Source: Candidatus Kapaibacterium sp. (lineage in GTDB: Bacteria; Bacteroidota; Ignavibacteria; Kapaibacteriales; Kapaibacteriaceae). Taken from it: a DNA stretch of 34,877 nucleotides. The notes beneath the pieces are model-generated. The model ran no database searches and was not told the DNA's origin. It saw nothing but the letters and a program-made list of their open reading frames with translations. The stretch is from contig VFFB01000014.1 of the NCBI GenBank assembly GCA_018882585.1, forward strand, positions 1-34,877, written 5' to 3'. The translations under genes and the position numbers were made by a program. Shown here in pieces: positions 2,318 to 13,808 of the stretch. The stretch's first letter is position 1; every line of letters begins with the position of its first letter.

Positions 2318-3577
2318 TCAGGCCAGACCACGGTCGGCGGCTGGACGTCGCAGCGTAAGCATCGTGATCTCGGGCGGAATGCCTATGCGCATGGGAGGGC
2401 CAACGGTGCCAATGCCGCGGTTGACGTAGACATGTTGGGCGCCAATGGCATACAAGCCTGCCCACTGCTTATAGACGTATTGTGCCGGACTCCATTCGAA
2501 GCCCATGAGTTGCACGCCAAGTTGTCCACCGTGCGTATGGCCGGCAAGCATAAGCCCAACGGGACTTCCTACAACTTCGCGTTCCCAGAACGTCGGGTCG
2601 TGGGCAAGCAGGATCACGGCATCCTCTTCGGTTGCGTCGCCCAGAGCCTGCTCCAGACGCGCAAACCGCTGTTTAAACCCAGTATTGTCCGTACCGGCAA
2701 TGACAAGGCGCTCGCTGCCGGCCGTCAGAATGCGACGCTCATTCACGAGCAGGTCAATGCCCCTTGACCGAATGGCCTTGACCAGGTCGGCGTGCTCGGC
2801 ATCGGTGTTGTAGTGGTCGTGATTGCCGAGCGAGGCGTAGACGCCTTCGGGCGCATGCAGCCGTTGAAGTTCACCATCGATGACGGCAAGCTCCGAGGGC
2901 TTTGCATTGACAAAATCGCCTGTGATGGCGATCATGTCGGGCTTGTGCATTGCCAGAATCCGCCGCACCTCCTGGAATGGTCGATGATCCGGAAAGGAAC
3001 CTGCATGGATGTCACTGATCTGGGCAAGCCGCATCCCCTCGAAGGCACGCGGCAGGTTGGGGATCACGACATCGAGTTCGTAGACCTGAAAATCGTACAG
3101 TGTCCGATACATGCCATTTCCAACAAGCACATACGGAACGGCCGAGAGCGACCAGCCGGCCTTCCCGAAGAAGTCACGTCGCGTCATGACCGAGGCGTCT
3201 TCGGCAGACGCCACGACGTCGCTGTCCGTACTGCGAAAACGCCGCATCAGCCATGACGCTGCAGCCTTGCAGGCACGCACTGCATCCTTCACCAGCAGGA
3301 CGATACCAATGGCCAGTTTGGGCATAGACCAAAGGGTGAACAGACCCATCAGCACAACATCCACGCCATCCATTCGGAAAAAGTGGCGGCGGTACACCAC
3401 GTACCAGTACAGGCTGAACATCGTAAGCGACGTCAGCCACATTGACCGGTGCCACCAGCGGTTCATGGAATGTCGTTGCACAAATCGCGTCCAGTGTCCC
3501 AGCACATAGGCGTCCAGCGCCATCAGCACCAGTCCCAGCACGATGGAAAACGCAATGATGTTCGGTTGTTCTTTCAT
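2318..3577 (-). CDS. Membrane-anchored metallophosphoesterase (YkuE-like)
   Basis: N-terminal hydrophobic helices; LAQISDIHAGSF, ITGDFVN, SLGNHDHY, LLAHDP, LAGHTHGGQLG metallophosphatase motifs; ATGA overlap with upstream gene. Confidence 0.9.
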   Translation of the reverse strand: MKEQPNIIAFSIVLGLVLMALDAYVLGHWTRFVQRHSMNRWWHRSMWLTSLTMFSLYWYVVYRRHFFRMDGVDVVLMGLFTLWSMPKLAIGIVLLVKDAVRACKAAASWLMRRFRSTDSDVVASAEDASVMTRRDFFGKAGWSLSAVPYVLVGNGMYRTLYDFQVYELDVVIPNLPRAFEGMRLAQISDIHAGSFPDHRPFQEVRRILAMHKPDMIAITGDFVNAKPSELAVIDGELQRLHAPEGVYASLGNHDHYNTDAEHADLVKAIRSRGIDLLVNERRILTAGSERLVIAGTDNTGFKQRFARLEQALGDATEEDAVILLAHDPTFWEREVVGSPVGLMLAGHTHGGQLGVQLMGFEWSPAQYVYKQWAGLYAIGAQHVYVNRGIGTVGPPMRIGIPPEITMLTLRRPAADRGLA

Positions 3578-4494
3578 GCAGACGGAGTCGTCTTCAACGT
3601 GATAAACAGCGCGGTTGCTTCGGCCACCAGGTCATTCGTGTTATCGTCCCGGATCTCCCCTCGGAGCATGTTCTTGCGGCCGCGGATCTCTTCGACCCAT
3701 GCTTTGATGTTGTACGTGTGGTGAACAAGCATCGGACGTCGGAAGTTCACCTGTAGTGATGCTGTCGGTGCCTTGATCGAGCGCCGACTCAGACACTTCC
3801 CCATCGTCTCGTCAAGCAACAGCGACACGTAGCCGCCGTGTACGGTTTGCAGCGAGCCGTGCATGCGCTCGTCAGGCACCAGCCATGTCCGCACGCAATC
3901 ATCTGCCGTATCATACACGAAGCTCAGACGCAACGACGATGGATTAGCCCCACCACATCCAACGCACATGTTCTCCGCTCGTGGACGGATGATCTCATAC
4001 CGGGCATCATCAAGGGGGCGAAGCGGGACCATTGCTCGCGATACTTCATCGTGATAGGCAAAGAGCGGGCCCCACGGCGTGATGCGTTCGGCCACCGACA
4101 TTGCCACGCTGGGAGCCAGGCGTCCGTAGTCGCCCACGGGTGCGACGTGATACAGCACACCGTCGGCCGTATATGCCAACGCAGATGGTTGAAACCGTAC
4201 CGTCAGACCTGCGGCATAACCAAGGTCTGTACCATCGAAGCGCGTGAACACAATGGGCGTATCGGCGGGACGGAAGAAGTTCATCTCGTCGCCGCACCTG
4301 GCCACGTACGGATAGTCGGGGTAGAGTGGATTAGCCGTCCGAGCCAGCCGCCGAAACGCGTAATCCAGAAACCACGGATCGTCGTGTACGGCCCCATCTA
4401 ACGTCAGGACGCCACGATCCGACACGTCGTAGAAGAATTCGCGTTTCATGGGTTGCTGAGACATTTCCGACGCCATTGACGATGCAAGACGCAC
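3574..4494 (-). CDS. Two-domain protein: N-terminal DUF4505/UPF0598-like domain fused to C-terminal PaaI/THEM4-type hotdog thioesterase
   Basis: N-terminal KREFFYDVSDRGVLTLDG...YPYVARCGDEMNFFRPADTPIVFT resembles the UPF0598 consensus as I recall it; C-terminal CVGCGGANPSSLRLSF...VHGGYVSLLLDETMGKCL...ASLQVNFRRPM is typical of hotdog thioesterases. The N-terminal start could be one of the downstream Met codons. Confidence 0.8.
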   Translation of the reverse strand: MRLASSMASEMSQQPMKREFFYDVSDRGVLTLDGAVHDDPWFLDYAFRRLARTANPLYPDYPYVARCGDEMNFFRPADTPIVFTRFDGTDLGYAAGLTVRFQPSALAYTADGVLYHVAPVGDYGRLAPSVAMSVAERITPWGPLFAYHDEVSRAMVPLRPLDDARYEIIRPRAENMCVGCGGANPSSLRLSFVYDTADDCVRTWLVPDERMHGSLQTVHGGYVSLLLDETMGKCLSRRSIKAPTASLQVNFRRPMLVHHTYNIKAWVEEIRGRKNMLRGEIRDDNTNDLVAEATALFITLKTTPSA

Positions 4495-4513: not shown

Positions 4514-6160
4514 TTACATCACCTCGGGAGCGCCAACGCCCAGCACGGCAAGTCCGTTGCGCATCGCGCGACGGGTCACCTCGGCAAGAAGCAACCTTGC
4601 CCCTTGCACTGCAGGCTCGGAGCCCAGAATACGGCAGTCGTGATAGAAGTTGTGGTACGCTGCAGCAAGGTCGCGCAGGTATTCGGCCACAGTATGTGGT
4701 TCGAGCTGGTCGGCAGCACGCTCAACAACCTGCCGGAAGCGGGACAGAAGCGTGATGAGTTCGAGCTCGCGTTCATGTGCCAACACGTGCAGGTCGGCCG
4801 ACTCGTCAACGGCAATGCCCTGCTCGGCGGCCTTGCGAAGGATCGAGGCGATCCGGGCGTGCGCATACTGCAGATAGAAGACGGGATTCTTGTCGCCTTC
4901 TTCCTTGGCCAGACCAAGGTCGAACTCAAGGTGTGTACCGGCGGCCCGCATCACGAAGAAGAACCGTACCACGTCGGCGCCGACTTCGTCGATCAGCTCG
5001 TCGAGCGTGAACGACTTACCGGAGCGCTTCGAGAACTTCACGACCTCGCCGTTTTCCACGAACGTGACCATCTGGTGGATGACGACGCGAACCTTCGAAG
5101 CGTCCTGTCCAAGTGCCGTAACGCCTGCAAGCACGTCCGGTATGGTCGCGATATGATCGGCGCCAAAGATGTCCACCAGCATATCATAGCCCTGGGCGAG
5201 CTTACCTGCATGGTAAGCGATGTCGGGCAGACGGTACGTCGGTTCACCCGACGATTTCACGATAACCTTGTCCTGTTGTTGTCCAAGCTCAGTAAGTGCA
5301 AGCCACGTTGCTCCGTCCTTTTCGTACACAAGTCCCCGCTGGCGCAGGGCTTCGATCGTGGCTGTGATCTTCCCTTCGGTGTACAGCGAGTCCTCGTTGA
5401 AAAACACGTCGTGGTGGATGTTCAGCGAGTCGAGTGTCTTCTTGATCAGGTCGAAGCACCATTGCTCGCCGGCGCGCCGACAAAACGCACGGCGTTCGTC
5501 ATCCGAGCAGGCCTCGTATGCATCTTGTCGCGTGGCCACGATGTCATCGGCGATGGCATGGATGTACTCTCCGTGGTAGCCATCCTCGGGGAACGGGAAC
5601 TCCGGGTCGCCAAGACGATGACGGACGCGAGCATCAATACTCTCGCCCAGTTTATTCATCTGGTTACCGGCATTGTTGAAGTAGTATTCCCGCGTCACCG
5701 CGAAGCCGCACCAGGCCAGCAGATTCGCAATGGTGTCACCAACGGCACAGTTTCGGCCGTGGCCGGCGTGCAGAGGGCCCGTCGGATTTGCGCTCACGTA
5801 TTCGACGTTCACGGTACGTCCGCCTCCGATATCCGATCGGCCCACGTCTGCACCCTGCTCGATCATCGTTCGCAGCATATCGTGGAACGCGGCAGCGTCG
5901 AACGTGATATTGATGAAGCCGGGGCCGGCGATCTCGATGGATTGCACGAAGGGCACGTCATTACCAAGCGCATCGACGATCGACTGTGCGATCGCCCGGG
6001 GATTACCTCGCATCGACTTGGCAAGGGCCATGGCAACGGTGGTCGAAAGGTGTCCCTGCCCTTGTTGCCGTGGGATCTCGAACACCACGTTTGTATCCGA
6101 AGGGGCGTTGATCGACGCCAGTGCGCGCTGCAGGTGTGACTCGACGTACGTGTGAAGCAT
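4514..6160 (-). CDS. argS: Arginyl-tRNA synthetase
   Basis: NVEYVSANPTGPLHAGHGRNCAVGDTIANLL (HIGH-type motif), KFSKRSGKSFTLDELIDEVGADVVRFFFVMR, C-terminal DALR-like anticodon-binding region. Confidence 0.97.
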   Translation of the reverse strand: MLHTYVESHLQRALASINAPSDTNVVFEIPRQQGQGHLSTTVAMALAKSMRGNPRAIAQSIVDALGNDVPFVQSIEIAGPGFINITFDAAAFHDMLRTMIEQGADVGRSDIGGGRTVNVEYVSANPTGPLHAGHGRNCAVGDTIANLLAWCGFAVTREYYFNNAGNQMNKLGESIDARVRHRLGDPEFPFPEDGYHGEYIHAIADDIVATRQDAYEACSDDERRAFCRRAGEQWCFDLIKKTLDSLNIHHDVFFNEDSLYTEGKITATIEALRQRGLVYEKDGATWLALTELGQQQDKVIVKSSGEPTYRLPDIAYHAGKLAQGYDMLVDIFGADHIATIPDVLAGVTALGQDASKVRVVIHQMVTFVENGEVVKFSKRSGKSFTLDELIDEVGADVVRFFFVMRAAGTHLEFDLGLAKEEGDKNPVFYLQYAHARIASILRKAAEQGIAVDESADLHVLAHERELELITLLSRFRQVVERAADQLEPHTVAEYLRDLAAAYHNFYHDCRILGSEPAVQGARLLLAEVTRRAMRNGLAVLGVGAPEVM

Positions 6161-6169
6161 GATGTCGTA

Positions 6170-6577
6170 TCAGACAGTTCGTTTGGAAAGGGTGATGGCC
6201 TTGGCGGCACCTGCGGGTGTCAGCGTATAGGCTTTCGCGTCGCCCCACAGTCGCTCCAGCTTGTAGAAGTCTCGAGCCTCGGGGAGCATGACGTGAACAC
6301 AGATGTCAAAGAAATCCAGGATAACCCACGATCCCGATGTCTTCCCGGTGATGCGGGCATTTCCCATGCCGAGGCCTTTGCAGGCAACGGCCACTGCGTC
6401 GGTCACAGCGCGGACCTGGGCATCAGAATCGGCCGTGACGATCACGAAGAAAGCAGCCGGCGCGTGTTCGATCTCGTTCATGTCGAGGATCACGATATCG
6501 TGAGCCAGCTTGTCTTGGGCGACACGTGCACAGAGCACGGCCTGACCTTTTTGCGACCTTGGTTTTGAGTATGCCAC
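6170..6577 (-). CDS. rsfS: Ribosomal silencing factor RsfS
   Basis: KLAHDIVILDMNEIEHAPAAFFVIVTADSDAQVRAVTDAV...GSWVILDFFDICVHVMLPEARDFYKLERLWGDA is characteristic of RsfS/DUF143. Confidence 0.93.
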   Translation of the reverse strand: MAYSKPRSQKGQAVLCARVAQDKLAHDIVILDMNEIEHAPAAFFVIVTADSDAQVRAVTDAVAVACKGLGMGNARITGKTSGSWVILDFFDICVHVMLPEARDFYKLERLWGDAKAYTLTPAGAAKAITLSKRTV

Positions 6578-9045: not shown

Positions 9046-9089
9046 TCACAACGAACATGAACTACAAGCACCAGCAACATCGAGGTCGT

Positions 9090-12000
9090 ATGAACTTCCT
9101 TGCTTCACTTTTTCGCACTGCCGTGTTGGCCATGCTGTGCATGGTCGGCGTTGGGTCCGTTCGTGCACAGATCTTCAACGTGTACAACGTCAATGCCTCG
9201 GCATTCCCGAAGATCACGGCGGATTACGTGGCACTGGATGCCCTTGGCAATCCGATCCCCAATCTGACGGCCGCGGATTTTGCAATCCGCGAGACGCCGA
9301 ACGGAGTGCCGACGCGTGACCTGACGGCGACGCTGAAGCACAACTGCAAGGACATCACGACCGATCCTCAGTCATCGATCTTGATCATCCTTGACCGGTC
9401 GTTCTCGATGAATGACAAGGTTCAGCCGCTCAACAAGCGTCGCTGGGATTATGCCCGCGATGCCGTCAAGGCCTTTGTCGGGAACGTCAATTTCACCGGC
9501 GAGACACGTGTTGCCGTGGTGTCATTCGCTTCGAATTACGAAACGTGGGTCCCGTGGACGAGCAATCCGAATGAGATCCGAGACACCCTTGACCGACGCG
9601 AGCCCGGAGGTGTCACGAACTATCGTGCGCCGTTCCGAATGGATGACCCCAACAACGTCTTCAAGCTGTTCGCCCAACGACCTGCAAATCTGCCACGGTT
9701 CGTGTTCTTCCTGACGGACGGCCACCCCAACCCAGGCTTTGAGTCCGATGCCGAAGGACTCCGCTGGGCCGACTCCGTATCGAAAGAATGCCAGAAGAAC
9801 AACATCCGATTCTACGGTGTGACGATCCTTGAACAGACGACGCACTATACCCTGTCCAACATCGCACAGGCAACCGGCGGCAAGGCCATCGTCACAAACG
9901 AGCAGAAACTCGTCGACCTGTTTGGCTACCTCGCTCTCGAAACGCAAGTCCGTCGCATTTGCTCGCTCGAGTGGACAACACAGGCTGCCTGCGGCGAAGC
10001 TTCTCGGGACCGAGTTGCCAGCATCACGCTGAAGCGAGGCAACCCCAATCCGACGATGGACGTTAACTATACGGCACCACCGACGGCTGTTGCCCGCGTC
10101 GACATTAGTAATCCGGTCTTGTACTGCGGAGATCCGCCAGCGGGGGGCACTGCCAATGCTGACGTAACCATCACGGCCGTTGGAGCGCCGTTTACGTTCA
10201 CCGGATTCACGGTGACGCCACCGACGTATTTTTCGGTGGTCGACTACAACGTGCCCAACAATCAGCAGACGGCTCCCGCCTCGATCACGATCGCACCGGG
10301 GCAGAAGCGCACGTTCCGCATTCAGTTCAAGCAGGGCACGCTTCGGCAGTTCCGTGCGGCTCAGCTCCTGCTTGAAGGCACGCCCTGCTCGCAGATCATC
10401 TCACTCGTTGGCGGCACTGGACAGATCCTGCTGAACTCACCCGTGGGCGGTGAACTGTTCTCGACTTGCGATACCGTTACGATCAAGTGGGCAGGCGTCT
10501 TGCCAACGGACGAAGTGACGATCCAGTTCTCCGAAGACGATGGCAACACGTGGAACACGATAACCACGACGGCAAAAGGTCTGTCCTACAAGTGGCTCCC
10601 CCCACGGTCCGGCCAGCGCTACCGCATCAAGGTGATCTACGATCCGAAGCCGGACTACACCTGGGCTACGCAGCTTGGTGCCGCCAGCGCCGAAACCTCG
10701 AACTCGATCTCTGTCTCCGAGGATGAACTACGGGTCTACGTGGCCGGCTGGTACGATGGCCCCTCGAAGTTTGGAAGCCAGGTTGTGAGCAACGTCGACG
10801 GCAACGTCGACGGATTCATGACCGAACTTGATGGCGACGGTCGTGTCGTGAAGACGACACTCCTTACCGGTAACGGCAATAACGACGAGAAAGTGATCGG
10901 TGCCATCGTGGACAAGGAGGGTTTTGTTTACGTGGCAGGCCACTTCGAATCGCAGGCCGCGACGTACGGATCCATCGGTATCAACCTGCAGGGGCCGAAC
11001 GACACGAAGAATGTCTTCGTCATGAAGCTCGCTCCGACGGGTAATCAAATGAACTCCGCCCAGATCGGCGGTTCGTCAACACAGCGGTCAACCGTCGAGA
11101 TCACGGACTTCGGCATCGAGTACAACGCCGCCGGACGCCCCCGACTGACGGTCGTAGGACGCTATCAGAAGTTCGCTCGTGCCGGTGCCGACAAGAACGG
11201 CAACTTCATTCAGGTCGGACCGGTGACGTCAACGAACTGGATCAACTTCTACGCTGTCTACGACGAGAACCTTGTCCCATTGTCGATCACCAATGGCCCC
11301 CGCCCCGGCGGTCCCGCCTACTGCGCAAAGACGGTGACTCGCGGGACGTGGACGTACGAGACCGGCACGTATACGGCGCCCAAACCATTCGGATCCCTGC
11401 CCGGACTGCCACACAGTGGCAAGACCGACGTGTTTGTCTCCAAGTACGGTTCGATGCCCACATCAAGCAAGGCCAGCGACTCGTCGTTCAAGGTACTTTC
11501 GCCAACGATCGTGTTCTCTCCGGCAACGGTCACTGTCGACCCCATCGTTCAGGGCTCGTCAACTGCCAAGACGTTCCCCGGTATCCTTCAGAATACCGGA
11601 CCGTTCGACATCGTACTCTGCAATCCTACCTTCTCAGGACCGAATGCCGGAGACTTTGCCATCGTAGGCAAGCTGGGCGGCGTGACGCTACGCCGGGGTC
11701 AGTCCCTTGGTATCGAGATTGCCTTTACCCCGCAGGGTACCGGCCCCCGTACGGCAACGCTCTCGCTGTGCGGCTCTTGCAACGCGCTTGCAACGCTTGT
11801 CATCAACGGCGAAGGCCTGGCCCCATGTGCCTGGTCACTGCTGTCGCCCGTCAACGTCGGTACCGTCGTCAAGGGACAATCCAACACGCTCACAAAGGTC
11901 CAGATCCTTCGGAACGACGGTCCCAACCCCCTTGCCGGAAACCTGCAGTATGTAAGCGGTTCCACAGACATCACGATCACGAAGGGTCTTGGCGCGTTCT

Positions 12001-13808
12001 CGATCCCGTCAGGCCAGTACCTCGAAGTTGATGTCACCTTCACGCCAAGCGGCGCCGGTCCTGCCCAGCGATTCATCAACTTCAACCTGCCATCGGGATG
12101 CGGAGCCGCCATCGGCCTGCTGACTGCGCAGGGTGTCGATCCGGTAATCACCATCGATTCCGTCGACTTCGGCAACCGTCGCGTGCTCACGGTCAACACG
12201 GATACCATCCGCGTAACGAACCGCACGCCGTTGCCCGCTCGCGTGGCGACTCTAGCGCTTTCCGACCCGACGAATGCCCACCTGAAGTTTACACTGCCAA
12301 CCACACCGTTCTCCTTGGCGCCCGACGAGTCGAAGGACATCATTGTGGTCTACACGCCACAGGACCGCTCACAGCAGAGCGTGAATGTGACAGCCACGAT
12401 CGAGGGCAGCGGAGCGACCATCGTTGGCAATGCCCGCGGCGGCGGTATCCTGCCGGCCATCGATGCCAAAGGCTATGCATTCGCACCGTGGACGGTGGGC
12501 CAACAATCTCCCGAGCGCGGAACGGTGACCATCCGCAACACGGACGCGGCAACACCGCTGAACCTCTACTCGATCGCCTTCTCGGGTGCAGCCACAGACT
12601 TTGCCTGGAGCACTCCGCTGCCCCAGATGCCTGTCAACCTGGCTCCGGGTGCTTCCCTGACGCTGGACGTACTGTTCACACCACAGGCACAAGGCGATCG
12701 CGAGATCGACGTCTGCATCGAGCATGATGCCAAGCCGGGACCGGACCCGATCCCACCCTATGCCAAGACGTGCGTCAAGGTGACGGGCATTGGTACCGTA
12801 CCGTCGAAGCTCAGTCCCGTGAACTTTGGAGACGTCCTGACGTGCGCCACGAAGACGGATTCGCGCACCATCGTGATCCAGAACCAGCATCCTACGCAGA
12901 CGCTGACGATCTCGCAGGTCGTGCAGAGCGGTCAGGTCAATGCGTTTGTCGTGCTGCTGGCTGCGCCCCTCACATTGCAGCCCGGCGCGCAGACGACGAT
13001 ACCGGTGCGCTTCGCGCCGCCCACACCCGGTGTATTCAGCGCTGCGTACGAACTCAAGAACGATCAAGGTCTCGACCTGGTCATCAACCTCTCAGGCACT
13101 GGCGTAACAGCCCCCGTCAAGGCCAATTTTGGCACCATCGGTCGCGGCGAAGTCGGCAAGAAGGTCGCAATGCCCATCAGCATTGATGTTGGCAGCATTG
13201 ACACGGTTGCTGTGCGTTCGCTAGACCTGACCGTGACCTTCTCGGAAACCGTACTGGCCTTTGCCGGCTTTGATTCAACGGCACAGCAGGCAGGATGGAC
13301 GTTCACTCCCGACGTTGCAACCCCGGGCCGCCTCGGTATCGGCGCTACGGGGTCGAATGGGGTCGCACCGGGCACCTTTGTAACACCAACGTTCGAGGTC
13401 TACCTGAACGCCGATTCTACGCTTCCGGTAAGCTTGGCGCTGGCGACGAAGGACTATGCATGCCTCGTGCCGACCGGAGACCAGAGCAAGGTCACGATGC
13501 AGCTGACATGCTTTGCCGAAGGACGTCTGATCAAGGTTGGGGCTGCCGGATTCGGCCTGAAGGAACCGATCCCCAATCCGGCCGGCGATGTGGCTGTCAT
13601 CCCCTACTCGACAGGTCTCGAAGTCGAAACGGTCTTTGATGTGATTGACGGCGTCGGCAACGTCGTCAAGCAGATCGTCACTCCCGCCCTTCCGTCTGCC
13701 ACCTACGAGCTCAGTCTGGATGTGTCCAACCTTGGCAGCGGCGTCTACTACGTCCGTATGACCTCGGGTCCGTTCGTCTCCAGCAGAACGCTGATGGTCG
13801 TGCGTTAA
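9090..13808 (+). CDS. Large secreted multidomain protein: VWA domain, SBBP-like repeat region, ASH/choice-of-anchor-D repeats, cohesin-like domain, T9SS C-terminal sorting domain
   Basis: Signal peptide MNFLASLFRTAVLAMLCMVGVGSVRAQ from ATG 9090; MIDAS-like ILIILDRSFSMND; VYVAGHFESQAATYG; repeated 'GP...FTPQGTGPRTATL', 'FTPSGAGPAQRF' type modules; C-terminal EPIPNPAGDVAVIPYST...LGSGVYYVRMTSGPFVSSRTLMVVR. Confidence 0.88.
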   Translation: MNFLASLFRTAVLAMLCMVGVGSVRAQIFNVYNVNASAFPKITADYVALDALGNPIPNLTAADFAIRETPNGVPTRDLTATLKHNCKDITTDPQSSILIILDRSFSMNDKVQPLNKRRWDYARDAVKAFVGNVNFTGETRVAVVSFASNYETWVPWTSNPNEIRDTLDRREPGGVTNYRAPFRMDDPNNVFKLFAQRPANLPRFVFFLTDGHPNPGFESDAEGLRWADSVSKECQKNNIRFYGVTILEQTTHYTLSNIAQATGGKAIVTNEQKLVDLFGYLALETQVRRICSLEWTTQAACGEASRDRVASITLKRGNPNPTMDVNYTAPPTAVARVDISNPVLYCGDPPAGGTANADVTITAVGAPFTFTGFTVTPPTYFSVVDYNVPNNQQTAPASITIAPGQKRTFRIQFKQGTLRQFRAAQLLLEGTPCSQIISLVGGTGQILLNSPVGGELFSTCDTVTIKWAGVLPTDEVTIQFSEDDGNTWNTITTTAKGLSYKWLPPRSGQRYRIKVIYDPKPDYTWATQLGAASAETSNSISVSEDELRVYVAGWYDGPSKFGSQVVSNVDGNVDGFMTELDGDGRVVKTTLLTGNGNNDEKVIGAIVDKEGFVYVAGHFESQAATYGSIGINLQGPNDTKNVFVMKLAPTGNQMNSAQIGGSSTQRSTVEITDFGIEYNAAGRPRLTVVGRYQKFARAGADKNGNFIQVGPVTSTNWINFYAVYDENLVPLSITNGPRPGGPAYCAKTVTRGTWTYETGTYTAPKPFGSLPGLPHSGKTDVFVSKYGSMPTSSKASDSSFKVLSPTIVFSPATVTVDPIVQGSSTAKTFPGILQNTGPFDIVLCNPTFSGPNAGDFAIVGKLGGVTLRRGQSLGIEIAFTPQGTGPRTATLSLCGSCNALATLVINGEGLAPCAWSLLSPVNVGTVVKGQSNTLTKVQILRNDGPNPLAGNLQYVSGSTDITITKGLGAFSIPSGQYLEVDVTFTPSGAGPAQRFINFNLPSGCGAAIGLLTAQGVDPVITIDSVDFGNRRVLTVNTDTIRVTNRTPLPARVATLALSDPTNAHLKFTLPTTPFSLAPDESKDIIVVYTPQDRSQQSVNVTATIEGSGATIVGNARGGGILPAIDAKGYAFAPWTVGQQSPERGTVTIRNTDAATPLNLYSIAFSGAATDFAWSTPLPQMPVNLAPGASLTLDVLFTPQAQGDREIDVCIEHDAKPGPDPIPPYAKTCVKVTGIGTVPSKLSPVNFGDVLTCATKTDSRTIVIQNQHPTQTLTISQVVQSGQVNAFVVLLAAPLTLQPGAQTTIPVRFAPPTPGVFSAAYELKNDQGLDLVINLSGTGVTAPVKANFGTIGRGEVGKKVAMPISIDVGSIDTVAVRSLDLTVTFSETVLAFAGFDSTAQQAGWTFTPDVATPGRLGIGATGSNGVAPGTFVTPTFEVYLNADSTLPVSLALATKDYACLVPTGDQSKVTMQLTCFAEGRLIKVGAAGFGLKEPIPNPAGDVAVIPYSTGLEVETVFDVIDGVGNVVKQIVTPALPSATYELSLDVSNLGSGVYYVRMTSGPFVSSRTLMVVR

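Follow-up and report, generated by a model that had tools for sequence, protein, structure and literature searches.

What can a bacterial gene that carries a DUF4505 (UPF0598) domain and a hotdog thioesterase in one reading frame tell us about C8orf82, the human member of the DUF4505 family? Translating the minus strand at 3574-4494 of the window (the whole 34,877-nucleotide stretch of DNA that was analysed) gave 306 codons from a GTG at 4494 with no internal stops, the same translation as the uninterrupted 306-aa ORF of an earlier sequence-only reading, whose coordinates and quoted motifs we also located where it had placed them. Because relatives begin at matching MxREYYY-type residues (MVRDYYY, MMRDYYY, MKRDYFY) and the ATG at 4449 gives MKREFFYD here, this ATG is, by alignment, probably the likelier start. 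Searching Pfam, we found the N-terminal half, which that reading had likened to DUF4505/UPF0598, to score significantly on this family's model (PF14956; E 3.3e-16, 60.0 bits against a gathering cut-off of 27.3, aa 12-137), and the 3' half, which it had called a PaaI/THEM4-type hotdog, to exceed the cut-off for 4HBT (PF03061; E 5.9e-9, 36.6 bits against 20.6, aa 216-286). The features of the gene are as follows.

3574..4449, minus strand: DUF4505-hotdog fusion, probable CDS of 291 aa; start taken from alignment with relatives, the frame reaching back to GTG 4494
4030..4446, minus strand: DUF4505 (PF14956) half (Pfam match 4084-4461), from the Pfam score, AF2 and the fold match to 2re3/2ra9
4255..4287, minus strand: E-x3-phi-x3-D-x-P motif (EMNFFRPADTP), common to DUF1285 (EKVGIRVxDAP)
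4147..4164, minus strand: DGVLYH motif of DUF4505, with G, Y and H near-invariant
3592..4002, minus strand: hotdog half (4HBT, THEM4/PaaI-type; 4HBT core 3637-3849), from Pfam and from PDB sequence and fold matches
3952..3966, minus strand: CVGCG motif at the start of the hotdog half; its two Cys are invariant in the family alignment (A5)
3811..3840, minus strand: HGG-x6-Asp, presumed thioesterase active site, from the phmmer alignment to 4gah/4ae8, with invariant H, G, G and D

The source genome is a 2.79-Mb draft in 200 contigs, which lends some weight to the idea that the fused frame arose by chance or through faulty sequencing or assembly. We consider this explanation exceedingly improbable, and it is ruled out because the fusion recurs in tens of genomes of seven families, each assembled separately and one of them (G059) a single contig. 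Scanning one genome per species across 85,462 species with two strict peptide patterns, which divergent members may escape, we recovered 24 loci labelled mostly Candidatus Kapaibacterium, Ignavibacteria or Bacteroidetes; the fused frame is complete in 23 (in L028 the 5' end is cut off), and the hotdog HGG motif is present in all 24. Within the order Kapabacteria the fusion occurs in 49 of 124 genomes, so the absence from relatives that the sequence-only reading would have taken as a sign of artefact did not materialise; 46 of these genomes pass the Pfam DUF4505 model, and three more (G297, G300, G302) add a fusion with a diverged DUF4505. The carriers belong to families f1, f2, f3, f40, f42, f44 and f45, and no DUF4505 matches were seen in families f4, f41 and f43 of the order.

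Using a sensitive profile, we found DUF4505 confined to this order among 396 genomes of the phylum, with no stand-alone DUF4505 in those 396 genomes, no DUF4505 among plasmid records and no close stand-alone hotdog within the order. Except where a contig breaks off within the gene, both halves always share one frame. Hotdog matches of at least 136 bits in the order's genomes all lie in fused frames, a 77-aa hotdog piece in G225 (81 bits) lies at the end of its contig, and those weaker matches that were examined are separate PaaI-like genes. Since the strong hotdog matches are all fused and stand-alone DUF4505 was not found in the phylum, the two domains are apparently obligate partners within the reach of our searches. 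We regard the fusion as real, conserved and apparently undescribed: a new arrangement of known families rather than a new system.

The PaaI/THEM4-type hotdog domain that makes up the C-terminal half retains the full HGG-x6-Asp, in which H, G, G and D are invariant across 18 diverse family members; the Asp of this motif is the catalytic acid in THEM4/PaaI-type enzymes. Its top PDB sequence match is THEM4 (phmmer, 9e-9), a human mitochondrial acyl-CoA thioesterase, and an AF2 model built with 11 relatives (pLDDT 91, pTM 0.81) has human THEM4 (1e-11), 2ov9 and THEM5 as its top PDB folds, so that fold and motif are shared with THEM4, THEM5 (ACOT15) and PaaI, the best PDB matches being 4gah, 4ae8, 2ov9 and 4ae7. 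Unlike THEM4, to which identity is only about 20%, the fusion has DUF4505 where THEM4 has its own N-terminus, and unlike THEM4 and PaaI it carries a CxGCG-x2-NP segment ahead of the hotdog fold. Among NCBIfam substrate models the hotdog half fell below the cut-offs of TIGR00369 (21.3 against 36.6), PaaD (14.4 against 118.9), MenI and YbgC/FadM.

For the DUF4505 half, all 31 sampled relatives match PF14956 at E up to 1, and the AF2 model built from them (pLDDT 93.9, pTM 0.87) is predicted to share the fold of DUF1285 (PF06938). Its significant Foldseek matches among PDB chains are DUF1285 structures only (2re3_B 1.1e-5, 2re3_A 2.8e-5, 2ra9 1.5e-4), with a Foldseek probability of 1.00 for 2re3/2ra9 and 0.11 for the next match. 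In 2010, DUF1285 and UPF0598 were placed in one superfamily on the strength of personal communications from Aravind and Grishin (PMC2954204), a statement for which the match of our model to 2re3/2ra9 therefore provides independent support. Searches by sequence did not bring out the relationship: the fusion protein had no DUF1285 sequence match in Pfam up to E 1, a DUF1285_N search of the source genome was negative, and a DUF4505 profile run against PDB sequences returned nothing useful. Direct comparison of the DUF4505 and DUF1285 profiles lent it weak sequence support, with P 0.0026 and a score of 26.5 where 30 shuffles reached at most 18.0, but an HHalign probability of just 11.6%. The two families further share an ungapped E-x3-phi-x3-D-x-P/A, which 29 of 31 DUF4505 and 10 of 10 DUF1285 sequences contain, compared with 3.4% of shuffles; this pattern was picked post hoc from the alignments. 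Near-invariant polar residues in DUF4505 are D, E, D, H and R. A stand-alone 168-aa DUF1285 gene (L146:8085-8591, minus strand) was seen in G282, a genome of family f43 without the fusion and the sole DUF1285 carrier among 297 phylum genomes.

Unlike the fused DUF4505, DUF1285 is mostly stand-alone and proteobacterial, and in several alphaproteobacteria it has a CoA pyrophosphatase as neighbour. Plasmid-collection records of Sinorhizobium, Rhizobium and Sphingomonas have a CoA pyrophosphatase (NF007980, above cut-off) and a CCA tRNA nucleotidyltransferase directly after DUF1285, and tblastn showed the same trio, with a Nudix gene of that kind, in Shinella, Methylobacterium, Azospirillum and Tistrella; these loci were reached via the Nudix gene first, and the frequency of the arrangement among DUF1285 genes is not derivable from them. 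An unbiased DUF1285 search also gave Paracoccus and Acinetobacter copies without a CoA pyrophosphatase neighbour, the Acinetobacter copy adjoining ETF-ubiquinone oxidoreductase and murI. We take 1dqa to be HMG-CoA reductase and 1dm3 to be thiolase, both CoA-using enzymes. These are two of the eight IsoCleft look-alikes given by the DUF1285 authors, who suggested that the interdomain cleft takes a nucleotide-type ligand and found no residue strictly conserved there (PMC2954208), so that the ligands of DUF1285 and DUF4505 may differ. The same authors reported Nudix hydrolases near most DUF1285 genes and took them as a sign of oxidative-stress signalling (PMC2954208). Reading the CoA link into this fold is our own reinterpretation, drawn from the annotation of the Nudix gene as a CoA pyrophosphatase; this adjacency would therefore link two branches of the fold to hydrolases of CoA derivatives.

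The two halves share a history. Their pairwise identities are correlated (r 0.745 with L043 left out; 0 of 2000 permutations), as expected from an old fusion passed on as a unit. At the locus left out of that comparison (L043/L060; G199, family f40) the frame is open and the DUF4505 half keeps 18 of the 18 most conserved columns, while in the hotdog half 8 of 23 remain, HGG is gone and Pfam gives no match. None of the other frames encodes a hotdog, which rules out a simple frameshift. Because the thioesterase site was lost while DUF4505 stayed intact, DUF4505 probably has a function in its own right, to judge from this one draft genome, and would thus be independent of catalysis in cis; since other genomes of the genus are without the gene, the copy may also be decaying. 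The reverse pattern was observed in genus g143 (L123, L124, L125, L066), where the hotdog is well kept and the DUF4505 half is strongly diverged, with the CG of its CGxE motif gone; outright loss of DUF4505 in this genus was ruled out, the domain being merely diverged.

Around the fusion, the window holds three genes on the same strand.

2318..3577, minus strand: calcineurin-like phosphoesterase, YaeI/LpxG-like, with a hydrophobic N-terminus; downstream of the fusion with a 4-base overlap
4514..6160, minus strand: argS, separated from the open frame by 19 bases on its upstream side; a neighbour conserved there within the family
6170..6577, minus strand: rsfS (ribosome silencing factor), preceding argS in the same conserved block

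The order rsfS-argS-fusion-phosphoesterase is that of family f1, usually with a LytR_C-like gene and a sigma factor ahead. The phosphoesterase is the most persistent neighbour of the fusion and also lies downstream of it in f2 (genus g5) and f3, and pncB is downstream in f40. Directly upstream stands dtd in f42, f44 and f45 and tsaD in f2 (g5), so that tRNA-related genes recur beside the fusion (4514-6577; L062, L063, L070, L072, L076, L081, L086), a theme that we spotted after the fact. A locus labelled Bradyrhizobiaceae (L027, JAGFIZ010000017.1), whose genome is without DUF1285, carries the block sigma-lytRC-rsfS-argS-fusion-phosphoesterase and, because this gene order is that of Kapabacteria, is probably a mislabelled MAG of Kapabacteria type. 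The idea that the phosphoesterase acts as LpxG in lipid A synthesis, which would point to an acyl-ACP substrate, loses weight: all 12 genomes tested, some of them without the fusion, carry a distinct LpxH-like gene, and the source genome has one as well. We also saw LpxC in frames of about 470-540 aa in these genomes (G000:C140:4023-4910), probably as an LpxC-FabZ fusion.

Taking these observations together, we tentatively propose a THEM4-like thioesterase equipped with a CoA-nucleotide-type ligand module, DUF4505, which would stand alone in animals as C8orf82. The hotdog half would oligomerise and hydrolyse a CoA thioester in the manner of THEM4/PaaI, its HGG segment positioning the thioester carbonyl and its Asp activating water. 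DUF4505 would be the binding module, taking a nucleotide-type ligand into its interdomain cleft. This ligand would most likely be CoA or acyl-CoA, bound by its nucleotide end, or a breakdown product, and the module would so either deliver substrate to the thioesterase or sense CoA status for it. In animal mitochondria the same module would occur without the enzyme, as C8orf82, and the THEM4/5-type thioesterases would be distinct proteins. In favour of this proposal are domain scores above cut-off, the THEM4 match, the invariant site, the shared history of the halves and fold matches to DUF1285 only, and its CoA element is strengthened because the fold of DUF4505 is that of DUF1285, which adjoins CoA pyrophosphatase. 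It is weakened because the NCBIfam thioesterase models fall below cut-off, because the DUF1285 cleft has no strictly conserved residue, because L043 keeps DUF4505 without the hotdog site, because the recurrent upstream neighbours are tRNA-related and not lipid genes, and because the Paracoccus and Acinetobacter contexts of DUF1285 are without CoA pyrophosphatase.

Several of these points would fit a rather unlikely alternative, in which DUF4505 has a separate nucleotide-binding or enzymatic role, perhaps connected with tRNA, with translation quality control or with oxidative stress, and in which fusion does no more than couple the expression of two functions. Retention of DUF4505 in L043 after loss of the hotdog speaks for such a role, as do the upstream argS (f1), dtd and tsaD genes, the CCA tRNA nucleotidyltransferase adjoining DUF1285 and the oxidative-stress signalling suggested by the DUF1285 authors (PMC2954208); however, the tRNA theme is post hoc and housekeeping genes often lie in operons, the L043 case comes from one draft genome of a genus whose other members are without the gene, and the complete cases are all fused to a hotdog of shared history. 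That DUF4505 is instead a passive appendage, helping the protein to oligomerise, to stay stable or to dock onto the adjacent membrane phosphoesterase without a ligand of its own, we judge quite unlikely. Hotdog domains commonly bear unrelated accessory domains, and the persistence of the phosphoesterase, with its 4-base overlap here, would suit docking; yet the near-invariant D, E, D, H and R, kept in L043 where the hotdog no longer works, suggest a specific site and not a passive scaffold.

Returning to the thioesterase with a CoA-nucleotide-type ligand module, we consider a wider generalisation of it unlikely: that the DUF4505/DUF1285 fold is a CoA-nucleotide-binding module working with hydrolases of CoA derivatives across distant organisms, with a thioesterase in cis in Kapabacteria, a CoA pyrophosphatase neighbour in alphaproteobacteria and, in animal mitochondria, C8orf82 working with THEM4/5-type thioesterases or other acyl-CoA enzymes.

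Metazoan DUF4505 proteins are stand-alone and the family is conserved in animals; human C8orf82 (Q6P1X6) presumably belongs to it (DUF4505/UPF0598, PF14956). The human protein is listed as a mitochondrial matrix protein (PMC7066081), whereas the Kapabacteria domain occurs in bacteria, joined to a thioesterase. We found no functional study of C8orf82 among 5.39 million open-access papers. The sequence-only reading had called the fusion a possible Rosetta stone for this family: the fusion and both domains were borne out, while the step from DUF4505 to acyl-CoA or acyl-thioester metabolism stays conjectural because hotdog domains are promiscuous fusion partners. The function of C8orf82 is not revealed by the fusion, which is a first testable lead and not yet proof. 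The obligate-looking THEM4-like fusion and the link of DUF1285 to CoA pyrophosphatase yield a short list of ligands (CoA, acyl-CoA and 3',5'-ADP), and where oxidative-stress signalling had been the earlier suggestion for this fold, the DUF1285 link makes a specific CoA hypothesis testable. Elsewhere in the window, positions 9057-13808 encode a 1583-aa protein with a von Willebrand-A-like start, repeats and a C-terminus like a secretion sorting domain.
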